This document shows, one piece after another, positions 51,039 to 62,650 of a stretch of DNA of 64,000 nt; the first letter of the stretch is position 1, and every line of letters begins with the position of its first letter. This DNA is from Pholiota molesta (taxonomy: Eukaryota; Basidiomycota; Agaricomycetes; Agaricales; Strophariaceae). Where the stretch lies: NCBI GenBank assembly GCA_014925825.1, contig JACGCK010000203.1, positions 1 to 64,000 of the forward strand, in the 5' to 3' direction. The notes beneath the pieces were generated by a model. That model made no database searches, had not been told where the DNA came from, and saw only the letters and a list, made by a program, of their open reading frames with translations. The translations under genes were made by a program, and so were the position numbers.

Positions 51039-52525
51039 ATGACGGGCAATACACTCTTTCGCCACGCAGACGTCAATCAATTCGTTCTGGTATCGAATGA
51101 GGATCTAGGCGCCGTGGAGGTGGCCACCTTTATCGCCCTCATACTATTTGGCATATCACTTTCACAAGGGTATAACTACTACCATAGGTGGAGTGAGGAC
51201 AGTAGGAGAATGAAATTTCTAGTGAGTCGTGTATTTCTTTCATCGCTGATCATAATAGAGCAATGTTTTGGTATTCAGGTTGGAACCATATTGTAGGATT
51301 TTTCTAAAATATAAAACAGAGCTTCCGTTGAAGAATAGCCGATATTCTAGGTTCCTAGAAGCTTCCCACTCTTTTACCGCTTCCCAAACTATTTACTACG
51401 ACACCGTCACTCGCTTTACCACAGCACAGCCAAATTCATACCCACTCTCAACCACTGTACTCCTAGAGACATTCATCACAGTTATCGTCCAGGTACTATA
51501 GAGATGGTGCCCTTCCATCTTCTTCGTTCTCCTAACTAACTTCCAAATTTCCCAGTGTTTCTTTTCCTATCGAATTTTCCGGCTATCTGAAAATGTCTTC
51601 ATAACTGCCACATGCCTTTCCCTGTCATTCCTACGCTTTGTCGGTGGCTTAGCGCTTACCATCGAAAGCTTCATAGACGTGCCTAACAATCCGAACGGGA
51701 TACTCTTTGTCCAGCGCCTCAGCTGGCTGATTACGTCGGCGCTTGCGGTGGGCGGTGCAGCAGATGTATTGATTGCAGCGGCAATGTTGGTATATCTGCG
51801 GCGGTTTGGCTCGCCTACCAATCTCAAATCGTACGCTTTCCTTCGGTCTGTGAGTTGGGTCAGTCTGATCATCATGTGCTGTATACCCAGAACAACAATG
51901 GTTATTAATCGGCTTGTGCGATGGTCTCTTCGTAAGTCAATATGTTCTCAAAGCTAGGTTTCTCTAATGTCGAGTAGAGACTAGACTGCTCACGAGGTGC
52001 GATACTTTCAACTTCTTGACCAGCGGGATCATAACTTCGGATAAGCCTGGCGTCAGTTGCGACGATCATTTGCGTACGTATGTTCAATAATTGCTTCATT
52101 TGTATTGGCTCTCAAATGCTATCATAGTTCCAAACAATGGCGAATAGTAAGCTCATTTATTATTTGTAATCTTAACACGGCTGATGTTGCAATACACTGG
52201 CAGTGATCTGGTTTGGAATATACATCGTTCTAGCAAAATGTATGTGTTCTTTGCATTAAATTATCGTTCACTTTGCTAAACCAAGTTTTTACGGAATAAA
52301 TTACAGTCTACGCAAACTCGTTGCTCGTCGCGTGAGTGTCCCTTCTAGTCTCTGTGAGACTGTGATATTGTATTGGAAGCACAGAAATTGAAAATATCGG
52401 CGCTCAGATTAACCTCGCGGCCACGGACAAGCATTTCACACCTACAGACGACGGGGCGATCAAGAGGCCACACCTCAATCATACAGTTCGAGCGTCCTCC
52501 GCCTCAAATATCCGTGCGTTTCTGA
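51039..52525 (+). CDS. DUF6534-type seven-helix membrane protein 2
   Basis: The ATG at 51039 gives MTGNTLFRHADVNQFVLVSN and LGAVEVATFIALILFGISLS. Helices then follow the same order as gene 1 at 11157-12736: FLEASHSFTASQTIYYDTVT, VLLETFITVIVQCFFSYRIF, CLSLSFLRFVGGLALTIESF, the DVPNNPNG loop, ALAVGGAADVLIAAAMLVYL, TTMVINRLVRWSLQTRLLTS, ASVATIICFQTMAN, WFGIYIVLAKFYANSLLVA. The tail ends RPPPQISVRF at TGA 52523-52525. About ten small introns are needed; one of about 53 bp (gtgcga..gataag) is inferred from the match to gene 1. Function is unknown for the family. Orientation is opposite to gene 1. Confidence 0.85.
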
Positions 52526-52734
52526 TATCGGTTTGAGGTGATAGTTTATTAATTCTCCATCTACTTAGATATCCTTCCCGACACCGTTTGGATCGATGGG
52601 CATTTCTAGGAGAATGTCTGTAGCTAGCTCGAAAGTACGTCTGATTGATCATGTTACAAACAATTCGTATCCTCTGAGAAATGGGCAATGAGAAAAGGCA
52701 GTGGCCCGTGAGTGAGGTGCGTGAGAGTGCGTGA

Positions 52735-52795
52735 GGATGCGTGCACTCACTTTCACTCATTTACGACTCGCGCTCACTCACCTCACTCACTTTTT
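52735..52795 (+). repeat. CACTCAC-rich minisatellite patch
   Basis: Irregular units of the type cactcact / ctcactcac. Confidence 0.6.
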
Positions 52796-53239
52796 CGGCC
52801 GGCACCGCTCCCGGCAACTTCGGCAACGAGTTCCCACCGTCTCAACTACACCTCCCATTGCAAAATCACTGCGCGAAAACTGCACAAGAGATATGGGTAG
52901 TATATAGCTGTTCTGTATCGATGCTATATGTATATAGCTACCGTTAAAAACTGTTTTCTTAACAAATGAGGCACCTCCATAGCTTGTATATATGTAAGGG
53001 ATAGTATTCAGAGTCCGGCAGGTGCACACTCTATACTGCTACAGCTCACGATGAATCACGTCAAAAAGTCTATGAAGGTTTGGGTCTGGAAAGTGTCGGG
53101 CAAGCGAGGCACTTGCGAGGCGCTCAGCGTAGCCTAAGTAACTGTTTGTGTAATTGGTGTGAACTACGTCAAATTACATGTAAGGTTGTAACTTGTGAGT
53201 ATACGACGTTAGACGCTCCGCAAGCGAATACGTGCCACA

Positions 53240-53560
53240 CTGCACCGCGCACTCCTCACGCACTCCTCACGCACCCTCACGCACTCTTCACGCACTTTCA
53301 CGCACTCTCACTCACTTTTTCTCACGCACTCACGCACTCTCACGCACCTTCACGCACCTTCACGCACCTTCACGCACCTTCACGCACCCTCACGCACTCT
53401 TACATATCCCCACTCATCCTCACTCGTCTATCACTCATTTAATTAGAAGTAAGTGCACTTATCACTCACTTGTATTTTCCCTTCACTTACACTCACTCAC
53501 TTATTTTTATCTGCACTTGCACTCACTCACTTGTATTACAAACTTACATTCTCAATCTCG
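53240..53560 (+). repeat. TCACGCAC minisatellite
   Basis: From 53260 to about 53410 there are many tandem 8-11 bp units of the form (c)tcacgcac(c/t)(c/t)t, including five cttcacgcac-like units in a row. Looser cactcact units continue to about 53540. Confidence 0.85.
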
Positions 53561-53595
53561 CACTTAGTCGACTGAATAATGATTATAATGGATAT

Positions 53596-53892
53596 TCAAG
53601 TTTGGAATGTGATTGTTTCGTTTTGTACTTGTCGGTGAGTGAGCCCAACCGCCGCCCTCCCGTAAGCAGCAGACGTACCGTGCTCCTCTCGAGCCGCGCG
53701 AACGACATGCGCTCGACGCGGCGCCCCGATGCGAGTGCGGCCAGCGCAGATGGGGACGCAGTTAGCGACGGAGGGCGCGGAGGACGGGGTGGTCGACGTG
53801 AGGCGCGAAGGAACCGGGAACCTGACGATGCAAGGCTTGCGTCGGACTCTCTTATGCGGAGTTCGACGACCCTTCAGTGAAACGTTCACCAT
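53596..53892 (-). other. GC-rich open stretch, doubtful gene
   Basis: A GC-rich patch in AT-rich surroundings is open on both strands. The minus frame has an ATG (MVNVSLKGRRTPHKRVRRKP) and 98 codons. The plus frame is Ser/Arg/Gly rich. No family is recognised; it may be a repeat remnant. Confidence 0.25.
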
Positions 53893-53898
53893 TCATTC

Positions 53899-54070
53899 TG
53901 TGACGCAGTCAGGACAAACAGTAATAATAATCGGACCAGCCGGGGATCGAACCCGGGACCTCTAGGGTATTGGCATACCCCATACCATGGCTGTGCTCTA
54001 CCATCTAAGCTACTAGCCCGTTATTACCTCTCTAAAGGATGTAAGGATATGACGGAACCACATCGTCACA
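53899..54070 (-). repeat. 3' LTR of the TRIM
   Basis: 172 bp starting TGTGACG and ending CGTCACA, so the tips are inverted. It differs from the other LTR only at the base after TGTGAC (G here, A there). Confidence 0.85.
53932..54019 (-). tRNA. tRNA-like sequence in the 3' LTR
   Basis: The acceptor stem GGGCTAG / CTGGTCC pairs over 7 bp with two wobbles. TAGCTTAGATGG fits the A box and GGTTCGATCCC the B box. The T arm CCGGG-TTCGATC-CCCGG is perfect, with a usual AGGTC variable loop. Between the D arm and the variable loop there are about 33 nt instead of about 18. They include a GGGTAT..ATACCC hairpin and do not fold into a standard anticodon arm with intron, so I cannot assign an anticodon. 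It may be a functional intron-bearing tRNA, a decayed one, or a tRNA-derived promoter. Confidence 0.65.
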
Positions 54071-54142
54071 GAGCCCCCCACTCCTTCAGCGAGGTAATCC
54101 CCAGGAATTGCCACCTCTGAGGACCATTAAGGTTCATCTAGA

Positions 54143-54153
54143 CTGGTCCGCCA
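54143..54153 (-). promoter_or_regulatory. Primer-binding site of the TRIM
   Basis: On the minus strand TGGCGGACCAG starts one base inside the 5' LTR boundary. It is complementary to CTGGTCCG-CCA, the 3' end of the LTR's own tRNA-like gene with added CCA. Confidence 0.8.
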
Positions 54154-54154
54154 T

Positions 54155-54326
54155 TGTGACACAGTCAGGACAAACAGTAATAATAATCGGACCAGCCGGG
54201 GATCGAACCCGGGACCTCTAGGGTATTGGCATACCCCATACCATGGCTGTGCTCTACCATCTAAGCTACTAGCCCGTTATTACCTCTCTAAAGGATGTAA
54301 GGATATGACGGAACCACATCGTCACA
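54155..54326 (-). repeat. 5' LTR of the TRIM
   Basis: Same length as the 3' LTR and identical except one base, implying recent insertion. Confidence 0.85.
54188..54275 (-). tRNA. tRNA-like sequence in the 5' LTR
   Basis: Identical to the copy at 53932-54019. Transcription from here would run through the rest of the element toward the 3' LTR. Confidence 0.65.
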
Positions 54327-54331
54327 CATTC

Positions 54332-54734
54332 CTTCCATTTATGCACCAGTCTCGCAGGCTTTGCGAGGGCGCTGAGTATTGAGTGCGCGAAATGTGTAGC
54401 TTATAATAAAACAGTATATAAAGAGTTTATATACAATCTTGTAGAAGTGTAGAATGAGGGGAAACTGTTTAGTAACTGTAACCGTTGCTACTAATGGCTA
54501 TATACCCTTTCTTCACTTCAAAAACACTTAACTGAGCAATAAGTACTGTAAAAAGAGCTGTATTGGCCTCTGAAATTATATCCAGTTTGCATTACCTACT
54601 ATTCGACAATTAACTTGAATATATCATGTATTAACGTTGTCTGACCTCCTGGGGTAGTATTAAAGGCCGTCCAAAGGTCGTAGGCTTGGTCTCGGCCCTA
54701 GCGCTCAGTGCTCCGTGCTCATTGGACGGTCTGG
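54332..54734. other. AT-rich intergenic DNA
   Basis: Nothing recognisable. Confidence 0.5.
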
Positions 54735-54865
54735 ACCACTCACTGACGCACTCACTCACCCTCACTCATCGTCCCTCGTCACCCACTCACCTTCACTCAT
54801 TATCCACTCATTCTCACTCATCTTCACGCATTCTCACGCACCCTCACGCACTTTCACGCACACAC
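54735..54865 (+). repeat. Second TCACGCAC/CACTCAC minisatellite
   Basis: Units such as cactcacc, ctcactcat, ttcacgcat and cctcacgcac, similar to the array at 53240-53560 on the other side of the TRIM. Confidence 0.75.
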
Positions 54866-55125
54866 TTCCCCTCACTGCTGGCACACTGCCTTTTACCCGT
54901 GCCCCTGAGAAATTATTCCCCCCCCCTTTCAGTCGCAGCAGCTTCAAGAGGACGCCAATTAAAAGATTGACGCGTCTGAATTGATCGCAGACAGTTCTAT
55001 CAGATAAAGAAAGATCTCCGAAAAGGTTCAAAATTCCCTTCATTCCATTGTAAACAGCCGTTCTACTAAACGGTACATGTATTTCAACAGTCGTACAGTT
55101 CAAATTTTACAATCATGTTATGTAC

Positions 55126-56177
55126 TCAATGTATCCCTTTCATTAAGATAGATTCAAGTAATCTGACTAAACTTTGGAATACCCGAATTTTCCGACTGAT
55201 TATTATTTGCCAATTGCTTGAATTGCCGGCGTTGCAATCACAACCACCGCGTGGATTTGTGCAATTCACCGCAGTATATACACCTTCTACGCCATTCGAA
55301 AGATTGGCGGTTACGCGATGTAGAAATGCACTTATCAAAGCGGCGCGTCGGTGACAAATAGAAGAATCTCGAGCTTCTTCTTGGGTCCATAGATCCCCAG
55401 CAAGTTTTGGTATTTGCAGCCAATGGCCATAATATTTCATCTGGAAAATTGTCAGTTAGATACGTTGTAATAGGAGGTGTGCATTGTCTCAATACCCATT
55501 TGAACGCAACGCCAGGGTCTTTGAGACCCCCTAAAGCTTTATCGATGGTGTTTGAGAGCGATATAGTAACAATGGCTGCCTTGTCGGCGAGGGCATCATA
55601 ACCATGGTTCGCACAGTGATTGAGCACTTCGACTGGATGGGATGAATATACTTGGCTTCCAAAAGTACAACAGCAAGTCAATCGATGCGTTACAAAGGAC
55701 AAGGAACAGCGGCGTACTGCATGTATGTCATACAAATATTCATAGCCCCGTATACAAGATACTTCTCGGCCGCTTCTGCGACCTCAAAGAACAGGGGACC
55801 TCCATATCAAACACGGATGGCTGATGGTATTGCTCTGACTCGGATCGAGGATGAACGAACTGGAAGAGGACCTCGAGAACGGCCGCTGATTCCGTCAAGA
55901 GGATAGCTTCGAGAGGATCAATGATGGTGGACGTAGGGGAGCCAATCCGGCACTGGTGGCCTCTAGATACTTGCTGTATATTCTGAAAGTGATACCATCA
56001 GCAGAGACGAAGGCCAGATCAGCGTCGCTATCAGAGACTATGAAAAAGATCGTCACAATGAGTCGACATGATGTGAGGTGGATCCGGAAGGGACGTACAT
56101 AGTGGAGACTGCCTCAGGTTGTTTGTGCTCTGGGCCGCATCTTCGAGCTCGAGTCTGGGAGCCTGAGAGATAGACAT
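55126..56177 (-). pseudogene. BTB/POZ-domain protein A with frame breaks
   Basis: The ATG at 56177 gives MSISQAPRLELEDAAQSTNN. After a splice it reads SDSDADLAFVSADGITFRIY and SKYLEATSAGLAP. The frame shifts near 55936 to TSTIIDPLEAILLTESAAVL and EVLFQFVHPRSESEQYHQPS, and again near 55797 (GGGG where five G would keep frame) to FFEVAEAAEKYLVYGAMNIC. After an intron comes YSSHPVEVLNHCANHGYDAL and DKAAIVTISLSNTIDKALGG, then KYYGHWLQIPKLAGD in the last exon, with the stop at 55126. It is an inverted paralogue of BTB B (61129-62158), and the upstream DNA also matches. BTB domains dimerise and often link to Cul3; no second domain is recognised. Confidence 0.75.
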
Positions 56178-56894: not shown

Positions 56895-59800
56895 CTATCT
56901 CCCCCTCCGTCGGCGGACGGACCCGACCTGCACGCCCAGCGCCTGGAGCACCGCCGCATCGTTCCCCCATGCCTCGACTTCCGCGCTCATCTCGAAAACG
57001 ACATCCGCGCCGTGCGCGATTTGTGAGTGCGCGATGACGGGTTTTGTTACGGGCACACCGTTGATGGTGAGCGACTTGATGTACGGTTTGGTGCGTGCCC
57101 CAAGTGCGGTGATTGTGAGCCGTTTGGACGATGATTTGGAGGCGCTTCCTGCAGACGTCGGGTTCTCGAGGTCGATGGAGATCTTCTCAAAGAACGGGCT
57201 ACATGATAGACGCAGATGAAAATTCTATCCCGGAGAGGTGAAAGGAAGACACTCACGATCCAACGATGTACTCCCCAGACACTGGATTTACGGGATAGAA
57301 GCCCATTGAGCTGAAGATGAACCATGCGCTCATCTGGCCACAGTCCTCATTCTGAAATTACCAGCGTCAGCGTTACGTTATACAATAACAGCAAAAGCAA
57401 CTCATACCCAGATAGTCCTGTGGGAGTGTTATTATAGTTCGCGACTGCAATCTCCCGAACCTTCTCCTGCGTCTTAAATGCCGCGCCTGCCATAGCATAG
57501 AGGTACGGTATATGGTGCGAAGGCTAGTCCGTCCACGGAAATAATCAGTCTGCCATCATTCTCGGGTAGAATTTGGACGAAGACGTGCCTCGTTAGAATG
57601 GTCATTATGACCCCCGTCGAAATGCGCGTCCAAGCTCTGCACGAACGCCACCTCGCCGCCGCGACGGGCGATGAGATTGTCCATATCGTGTACGACGTCG
57701 AAAGAGTATGCCCATTTATCGCCTGTGCAAAGAAAAAAAGATCCGTTCAGTACTGCATTTCTGCATTGCCATATACGCATCGGCTGAACATCGGCGCACC
57801 CTCAGTCCACCCATTATCAGGCCCGCCCAGCTTCCATTCGCGTTCCGGGCCTCCATGAACCCGGTCTCGTCATTGAAGAGGTTGAACGCTGTGGTCATGG
57901 ACCGATTGAGAAGGAACTCGGTAATCGAGTCCGGCTTCCCAAGCTCGCGCGCGAGGACATAGGCCGCATAGTCGTCGTCTAAAGGCACAATGGATTAGCT
58001 TCTAGATCAAGAGGGGGGGAAAGTGGACGAGGGTGGGGAGCGGTGTGCCGATGTGGAAGTGGTAGAAGAGAAGGGCGCCACATACACGCGTAATCCAGCG
58101 TCCGCGACGCGCTCTCGGAATGTATATCATCCGCAACCCATCCTTTCCCAGCAGTGGCGTACACCGTCGACAAGCCTGCACGCACTTCGTAGTCCACATG
58201 CTACATATCACAATATCGCATCAGATTCCATATCCAACCTCTAAGTAAACACGAGAACACACCTCCTGACGATCAGCATAGCTAATCAACAGAGCAAGAA
58301 AAAGAAAAAAAATCAACATCCAAGCGAAAGGAAGTGGAAAGAGACGAGACGCACACGACAGTCGCATCATCCTTCGGCGGAACTGTAGCGTCCTTCCACA
58401 CCGCCTCCCACGCGAGATCGCGGTCGAAGCCAGTGATGCCCTTCAGGACCGCTTCGGCGACAAGCGAGTCTGCATGGGTGCCCACCTGAGGTGCACAAAC
58501 AGAATTTCGATCAGCACATGCCACTGAGCCTGAATGGAGTAGGTATAGAAGTATACTGAGCGTACCATTATGTTCGTCTCCACGATGTTTTTCCACATAG
58601 GCAACCAGCCACCCTGTGAGATTTTGATCTCAAAAAATGCCCAGTGTGGTGTAGATCTGCGAACGCACCTCTTTATAATCTGCCAGCATGCTCGATACCA
58701 TCCCCGGTATGCGGTCGGGACGAAGAGGATCTGCCACGCCCATTCCGCGCGGAACGTGTCCTACATACCAAAATGTGAGAAAAAAAAGAGGAAAGCGACT
58801 GACAAGGCTGATGCTATGCGCACCCATATCGAGTAACCCGTATACGATTCGGCGCCCTCAGCGAGCTGATGGACCTTGTTGTCGTATCCCGAGTAATACA
58901 AATTCCCCTCGTGTTGTTCTGATGGGTACTAAGAAATCAACATCTCAATGAGCTGCATATTCGCTGCTTCGCCGACGTAAACCGGGACCCACCGTGAGCG
59001 TATGCACCATCCCCGTGTAGAACGCTTGCAGATCCACGTACTCGCGACTCGTCTCGTTCACGGCGCGCCCGTCCGCGAACGGCTGCACCTGCACGCGATC
59101 CAGCAGATCCGCCCAGGCCTTGCGCACCGTATACGCCGTGTGCTCGAACGTCCCCGTGGCCAGGTGGGGATGATCCGGCGCTGAGGCTGCAGGCGACGAC
59201 GTCGCGATCGCAGATGATTTTGCGTCTGGAATCTCCGCGTCGATGTTCTTCCGCGCTTGGGCTTCCGAAATAAACGACGTCCCCACGCGCAGGGTGATCA
59301 CCCTCTCGCCGGTTGGGGACGCAGGGAACTTGGCGTACGCGCTGAGAAGCGGGCCTTCGAACGTCTTCCCCTTGCCCACGGCTGAGGTGGTAGTCCCGTT
59401 CTGAATTACCCCAAGGTCGGCTGGGGGTGGTCTCGTCGAAACGGGCACAGAAATAGCCCTTGAACTTCTCCGCGAAGGGCGCGATGGACGTGGGCGCGAT
59501 GATCCAGTCCTGCCGCTCGTCTGACCAGCCGCAGATCTCCAGCGGTGTCGATTGGGAGGAGAACGTCACGCCGCCGAGAGGGAAGGTGATGTTGGTCGGG
59601 GTGGAGGTGAGCACGGAGGGGCGGGAGACTTCGAATAGGAGGTGTGGTGAGAGTTTGGTCTGGAATGTGAAGCGCAGATGCGCTACGTGGGATGCTATCG
59701 GACTATGTCAAAAATGAACTGCAGAAGAGAATGATGTCGCAACGTACTCGCAGTTTGCTCGATTTTGATAGTGCCGTTGTGGCCATCGTCGAGGTCCACG

Positions 59801-60599: not shown

Positions 60600-62650
60600 C
60601 CTGCTATGCGCTGAAAAGCGGGCCGCTGTATATTTGCCCTTCCCCACAGGAGAACTTGGAGAAGTACATTTCGCTCTCGATCCTCTCGATCCCAAATGTC
60701 GGCTGAAGAGCGCCCTCGTATGGCTTCGTATGGTCAAAGCTGGCCGAAGCTCTCACACGCGCGAAGGCTCGCGAAGAACGCGGGAGCGAGAATCCAATCC
60801 TGGCGCGGCGATGCACGGCGATACGCACCGGGAAGGGGCAGGCTTCTTCCATCTACGCCGTATCGCCAATTATTATTCTATGATATGTTACTTGTCAATA
60901 ATATCAGCTCTGATTGATTATCGAATCTTGGGAAATGCCACCTTAAACTATCCGTTCTACTACGTCTGGAGCATTCAAGTCGCTTGGATCAACTGATCGA
61001 ATATTTATGACGATCTTCCTATCCCAGAATCAAGATTTCACACAGATGTCAATTTAGGCGCCCGTCTACACGTGTCGCTCATCGATATAAGCCAGACATA
61101 CACGTTATTGCCTTCCATTACTTCCCCAATGTCTACATCTTCCAGTCCACTGTCTGAAGATGCGGTCGAAAGCAAGAACAACAAACTGCAGCTATCTCCA
61201 CTATGTACGTCCTTCCGGATCCACCTTACATGATGTCGGACTCATCGTAAAGAATTTTCTCTCATAGTCTCCGATAGCGACGCCGATCTGGCCTTCGTGT
61301 CGGCTGATGGCGTCATGTTCAGAATATACAGCAAATATTTGGAGGGTGCCAGTGCCGGATTGGCTCCGCCTGCGTCCACAATCATTGATCCTCTCGAATC
61401 TATCCTCTTGACGGAGCCGGGAACGGTTCTTGAAGTCCTCTTCCAGTTTATTCATCCTCGATCAGAGTCCGAAAAATACCATCAGCCATTACTGGTGGGT
61501 ATGGAGAGCTCCTTGTTCTTTCAAATGGCAGAAGCAGCCGAGAAATATCTTGTGTATGGGGCTATGAATGTGTGTATCACATATATGTAGTACGTCATTC
61601 ATGTGGCATTTTTATGAGCCAACAATTGACCTGCTCTGAAACTGGAAGTCAGATATATTCATCCTTTCCGGTCGAAGTGCTTAATCACTGTGTAAACCAT
61701 GGCTATGATGTCCTTGCCAACAAAGCAGCATTTCTTACTATATCGCTAGCGAATCCCATCGAGGAGGCTTTGGGCGGTCTTTCAGACCTTGGTGTTGCGC
61801 GAAAATGGGTACTTTTAATTACCATACACCCTCTATATAAAATGCACCACTGACAACTTAATTTTCGCAGACAAAATATTACGGACGTTGGCTGCAGATA
61901 CCAAGATTTGCTGCGAATATATTGCGCATAGAAGAATCTGCATCTTCGAAGTGTCAACGACGCGTCGCTATGATAAGTTCATTTCTGCTCAATGTGTCTG
62001 TCAGTCTGGGAAAGGCCGATCATGTCATGGACATCTCATCTCCATTGCCATGCTTCAATCCAAAGCTGTGTGATTGTTGGGCGACCAAATCAACTCCCTG
62101 GAAATGGCAAATACAACAAAAAGTAAAGGACATTCCAGAGTTTAGTCATATAGCTTAAATGTATTTTCATCAGCCCACGGAATGCATCGAATATATATGT
62201 AGCACGAGCGTCATAAATTATCGAACATATTCGCATTTTAGGTCCTACATGAGCACCACGCACCAAACCGGCGGAATGGGGCACAAACACCTTGAGTGCC
62301 ACGCCTTCGAGTGCTTGCCCTTGCCCATAGAAATAGTCCAAGGGAAGTAGTACTCAATCCCAAATATCGGCTGAAGGAGCGCCCTCAAAGCGCCCTCGTA
62401 TGCAACTCGTAATACTTATGGTGGAACTGGAAGTTGACTGGAAGCGATAATCCAATCCTGGCGCGGCGATCACATGATTGGCTTACGTATATACTATTAC
62501 GCCCAGTGCCCACCCCGCACCGGGCTTCTTCCATCTACACCGTTATTCTACGGCTGCTCGGACTGTTAAAATTTCAATATCAGCGCTAATTGAATAACTC
62601 TGGCGCTGCTCAACAATATGCCACCTATCCGTTCTACTATATCTGGAGAC
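60600..62650 (+). repeat. Tandem duplication of the BTB 5' region
   Basis: The stretches 60660-60990 and 62345-62650 share cccaaat.tcggctgaag, gcgccctcgtatg, aatccaatcctggcgcggcg and ccgttctacta.tctggag in order. So BTB B and C arose by tandem copying of a unit of about 1.7 kb that includes the promoter. Confidence 0.75.
61129..62158 (+). CDS. BTB/POZ-domain protein B (intact)
   Basis: Four exons. MSTSSSPLSEDAVESKNNKL is spliced (gtacgt) to FSDSDADLAFVSADGVMFRI, YSKYLEGASAGLAP, IIDPLESILLTEPGTVLEVL, FQFIHPRSESEKYHQP and FFQMAEAAEKYLVYGAMNVC. This is the BTB fold, with the final Ala/Cys helix. After an intron (gtacgt..ggaag) comes IYSSFPVEVLNHCVNHGYDV and LANKAAFLTISLANPIEEAL. The last exon reads TKYYGRWLQIPRFAANILRI and ends VKDIPEFSHIA at TAA 62156-62158. 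Such short BTB proteins are strongly expanded in Agaricomycetes and may act as Cul3 adaptors or as immunity-like regulators; this is inference. It is the only unbroken member of the three here. Confidence 0.85.

Follow-up and report, generated by a model that had tools for sequence, protein, structure and literature searches.

LTR retroelements start DNA synthesis from a borrowed cellular tRNA or, in the Tf1 type, from the end of their own mRNA. The question raised by the locus described here is whether such an element could carry a tRNA primer of its own. The locus lies at positions 53899–54326, on the minus strand, of the window, that is, the whole analysed stretch of 64,000 nucleotides from Pholiota molesta, and is 428 bp long. 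Repeat comparison delimited two LTRs of 172 bp, each starting with TG and ending with CA: in element sense, the 5′ LTR at 54155–54326 and the 3′ LTR at 53899–54070 (both minus strand); the two differ only at sense position 166, with T in the former and C in the latter. Between them lies an 84-bp core (54071–54154, minus strand), which has one match in the assembly, the element's own. The primer-binding site (PBS) of 11 nt (54143–54153, minus strand) is placed one base inside the 5′ LTR boundary, and a polypurine-like tract with 13 purines among its 14 bases (54087–54074, minus strand) ends 3 nt before the 3′ LTR. The target duplication CATTC is found on the left (53894–53898) and on the right (54327–54331) of the element, and no stop-to-stop ORF of at least 100 aa overlaps the 428 bp. 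The minus-strand LTR mini-element of the initial annotation, with its 172-bp LTRs, 84-bp core, CATTC duplication, PBS, and purine tract, was thereby confirmed in the sequence. Taken alone, its assignment to a Helenus-type TRIM insertion, made by structural features, is one in which we have high confidence.

Each LTR contains an 88-nt tRNA-like sequence in sense orientation (54188–54275 in the 5′ LTR and 53932–54019 in the 3′ LTR, both on the minus strand), as had been annotated; in both LTRs it scored 40.7 bits for the Rfam family RF00005 (gathering score 29, E 5.1e-07). The Rfam alignment omits the anticodon arm, and the anticodon region is aberrant. The unit can form seven pairs in the acceptor stem, two of which are G-U, as well as four in the D stem and five in the T stem. 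Furthermore, the A-box-like TAGCTTAGATGG (54257–54268 in the 5′ LTR, minus strand) and the B-box-like GGTTCGATCCC (54199–54209 in the 5′ LTR, minus strand, also located by pattern search) satisfy the Helenus motifs, which are TRGCY plus YGG for box A and GGTTC for box B in the available part of the published description (Kojima 2024, PMC10886601). ARAGORN called no tRNA anywhere in the window, and the unit did not fold better than its shuffles (z -0.92), so it is not an ordinary tRNA. Of the A box, B box, and acceptor stem claimed for it, the box motifs and the seven acceptor pairs were borne out, whereas the aberrant anticodon region and the missing ARAGORN call speak against a normal tRNA. 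Judged from its letters, a plausible description is a Pol III promoter combined with an acceptor/T-arm unit. The Pol III terminator TTTT was found on the sense strand neither in the 428 nt of the element nor in the 600 nt of the downstream sense-strand flank. Its absence from the element was dropped as a signal, since 38% of 3000 shuffles were also without TTTT.

The PBS (54153–54143, minus strand) reads TGGCGGACCAG and pairs with the 3′ end of the tRNA-like sequence, CTGGTCCG, plus CCA at 11 of 11 positions; that the PBS corresponds to this end plus CCA, as had been proposed, is therefore real. The LTR itself reads on as ATT after the tRNA-like tail and does not encode CCA; the TGG in the PBS therefore suggests that CCA is added to the RNA. 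The complementarity to the LTR-encoded RNA thus amounts to 8 encoded bases, or 11 with the added CCA. The computed duplex of the PBS with the tail and CCA has -27.7 kcal/mol, and that with the CCA-less encoded tail -20.4 kcal/mol. The self-primer match is probably meaningful, with a single copy as its basis. A longer complementarity between the core and the T arm, suggested by the fold, was dropped as a candidate: 4.4% of shuffles were as good, and 8 of 25 host tails were equal or higher.

We hypothesize that this is a non-autonomous element of the Helenus kind, with a Pol III promoter in the LTR, help in trans, and self-priming by its own tRNA-like RNA; as a whole statement this is tentative, at somewhat below an even chance. 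Given its two boxes and what has been published on the family, the tRNA-like unit would supply an internal Pol III promoter. The matured tRNA-like RNA would end in GGCTGGTCCG, followed by the unencoded CCA. For end processing and the addition of CCA, a minihelix of acceptor and T arm can be enough. Once end-processed and CCA-tailed, the element's own transcript would prime the first strand at the PBS. If the tRNA-like RNA were excised from the 5′ LTR transcript, this would give both a primer and a template whose first 33 nt are the end of the LTR. The reverse transcriptase and integrase would be provided in trans by an autonomous LTR element, which in fungi is probably a Copia element, according to the part of Kojima (2024) that is available. 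It would be, with the same reserve, an LTR retroelement with a self-encoded tRNA primer, one unit acting as Pol III promoter, as part of the template, and as matured CCA-tailed primer, and it would be independent of host tRNAs.

Priming by a host tRNA, as inferred for Helenus by Kojima (2024; PMC10886601, available part), is a somewhat less likely reading here, though it has points in its favor. The LTR sequence may then derive from the same tRNA by shared ancestry, and this host tRNA would be absent from the assembly, diverged, or that of a former host. Three pattern searches of the assembly (18, 9, and 16 matches) found no credible host tRNA gene with a T arm and a matching tail. In the 18- and 16-match searches, the only mismatch-free matches were the element's own two. 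The 9-match search required of the tail only the terminal TCCG; two of the nine were the element, and the other seven have TCCG without the whole tail. Two of these seven (C195 and C57) were scanned and gave no ARAGORN call. The mismatched matches were judged by their letters, and those of the 18-match search were also scanned for tRNAs, with no ordinary tRNA in the results listed, only two long, implausible calls. In a comparison with 25 distinct tails of host tRNAs, the longest match counted from CCA was 5 bases, in a tRNA-Ser, versus 11 for the LTR tail. The tail of host tRNA-Ser(AGA) has TGGCG and CCAG in common with the PBS, with a differing middle between them; at -17.0 kcal/mol it gave the strongest duplex among 103 tail-like strings, some of them not real tails, that were taken from 48 host tRNA loci. 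The survey scored 63 of 2110 tRNA candidates, so the host sample (50 loci, a tRNA being called at 48 of them, and 25 distinct tails) is partial, and the assembly is in 625 contigs; both leave room for a host primer. Within these searches and tails, no unrelated host tRNA matched the PBS better, in agreement with the initial annotation.

Cis self-priming as in Tf1 and Tj1, for which there are precedents in the available part of PMC4600332, is improbable. Here the LTR RNA would fold onto the PBS and be cut in place, and the tRNA-like sequence would be a promoter only. Even without CCA, the tail as encoded in the LTR forms a duplex with the PBS region (the -20.4 kcal/mol given above). Moreover, in a longer transcript the 3′ end of the tRNA prefers cis pairing with the PBS, and the minimum-energy fold contains it (z -2.07, with 8 of 200 shuffles doing equally well), so cis self-priming stays a rival to priming by a matured tRNA-like RNA. 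Such pairing could set up priming, or it could block maturation. Cis self-priming leaves the initial TGG of the PBS unexplained, however, and the pairing is perfect only with the added CCA.

A chance match between the PBS and the tail, with another primer in use, is quite improbable. That primer could be a fragment from inside a tRNA, as is the case for most Helenus elements of fungi, where the PBS corresponds to an anticodon loop and is similar to that of Copia (PMC10886601, available part). In favor of chance are the single copy, the mere 8 bases beyond a generic TGG, and an internal 8-base match to the PBS in host tRNA-Leu(CAG), itself judged to be chance. Against it, the duplex of -27.7 kcal/mol was equalled in 2 of 5000 shuffles of core bases 5–24, and the chance of 8 bases given TGG is about 2e-5 (39 occurrences, assuming one TGG per 64 positions). 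The 39 occurrences are those of the PBS 11-mer in the assembly, the element's own included; a reversed-pattern control gave 20. For one of 39 such 11-mers to lie at most 5 positions from an LTR end on one strand, the chance is about 1.5e-6. From these computations on the sequence, the self-primer match is unlikely to be due to chance.

That there is no LTR element at all, the structure being a tandem duplication or an assembly artefact, would agree with the one copy in the assembly and is highly improbable given the TG..CA ends, the 5-bp duplication, the correctly placed PBS and purine tract, and an empty paralogous site with one CATTC. The element sits inside a dispersed repeat of about 52683–54916, which has diverged copies elsewhere (DNA search with 52400–55900 as query), and most of the repeat before 53640 is matched with 75–84% identity at 14 further places of the assembly. 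In the aligned copy on contig C157 the element is absent and CATTC is present once: the left match stops at window base 53898, the right one starts at 54327, and on C157 itself these two matches share 5 bases. The single CATTC there shows that the 428-bp element is a genuine insertion, and the target duplication of the initial annotation, with two CATTC at the element and one at the empty site, holds. Copies of the repeat on C121, C21, and C591 are also without the 428 bases, by match spacing only. All four empty-site copies are paralogues of at most 93% identity, not alleles. As separate observations, some stretches are near-identical across contigs (L059/L067/L075, L056/L072, and L066/L071), as if there were two haplotypes in places, or repeats. 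Within the window, 55322–55900 and 61406–61986 form an inverted duplication of about 75% identity. Pieces of a glycosyl hydrolase family 92 gene lie at 56895–59707 on the minus strand, with PF07971 above cut-off in two ORFs and PF17678 below cut-off in a third.

The multiple genomic copies that had been expected were not found, which counts against the initial annotation, although the empty site shows that the element did insert: DNA searches and patterns with up to 3 mismatches detected this copy only in the 65.6-Mb assembly, the DNA-search counts being lower bounds. A large family of similar elements would be difficult to square with the pattern searches, one of which, with a 23-nt pattern, matched the element alone in the assembly at up to 3 mismatches. 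Two exact patterns revealed no relatives in viral contigs. Because there is a single copy, there is no conservation or covariation signal. A donor copy must once have existed; it may reside in sequence missing from the assembly, in a different nucleus or strain, or in a different genome altogether. Nor was the proposed autonomous partner with the same primer site found. Of the 38 PBS 11-mer sites outside the element, five were examined over 6.3–10.5 kb each, from 0.7–0.8 kb before the site, and had no LTR-like direct repeats; C444 among them had a short-period repeat only. For the remaining 33 the context viewed was 65 or 91 nt, and a partner could still lie there. The 30 best-scoring tRNA loci were rejected as a source of Helenus copies, the tRNA-overlapping repeats at 6 of the 30 being tandem tRNA genes only. 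These are tandem tRNA-Gly and tRNA-Arg/Ser genes 160–520 bp apart (L007, L009, L010, L011, L016, and L018), in which the repeat is approximately the tRNA itself, so they are not LTR elements.

Among known systems, Helenus (proposed name TRIMp3) comprises published TRIMs of 311–1263 bp with tRNA-derived LTR sequence (Kojima 2024, PMC10886601, as far as available). The present element resembles them in being short and non-coding, in the tRNA-like sequence with box A and box B that each LTR bears, in its PBS and purine tract, and in the 5-bp duplication, which is the length given for fungi. Hence, the initial annotation was right about a TRIM with tRNA-like LTRs, but this kind has already been published. 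Kojima (2024) considered the LTR tRNA-like sequence as a primer and, in the available part, reported no complementarity to the PBS. The present element, in which the PBS corresponds to the tail of its own LTR tRNA plus CCA, therefore carries a feature reported absent in Helenus. It also differs in that only one copy was found in this assembly, where counts are lower bounds. Tf1 and Tj1 are primed by a 5′ segment of their own mRNA (PMC4600332, available part), which makes self-priming as such a known mode; the present element has in common with them a PBS complementary to RNA from its own LTR. In contrast, their primer is this mRNA segment and not a tRNA, and Tj1 encodes Gag, PR, RT, and IN. 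Cassandra, as presented in the available part of PMC10886601, is similarly a TRIM carrying LTR sequence derived from a Pol III gene, but that sequence comes from 5S rRNA and the present one is tRNA-like; an Rfam scan of the element at E up to 1 matched tRNA only and no 5S rRNA. An LTR element with a PBS matching a tRNA of its own LTR was described neither in the titles and abstracts covered, mostly of open literature, nor in the available parts of PMC10886601 and PMC4600332.

If the element is primed otherwise, it simply adds to the known Helenus-type elements; its PBS is unusual and its insertion is demonstrated. If priming by its own tRNA-like RNA is true, an own-tRNA primer would be a third way of priming LTR retroelements, and it would give a reason for keeping a tRNA, and not another promoter, in the LTR.
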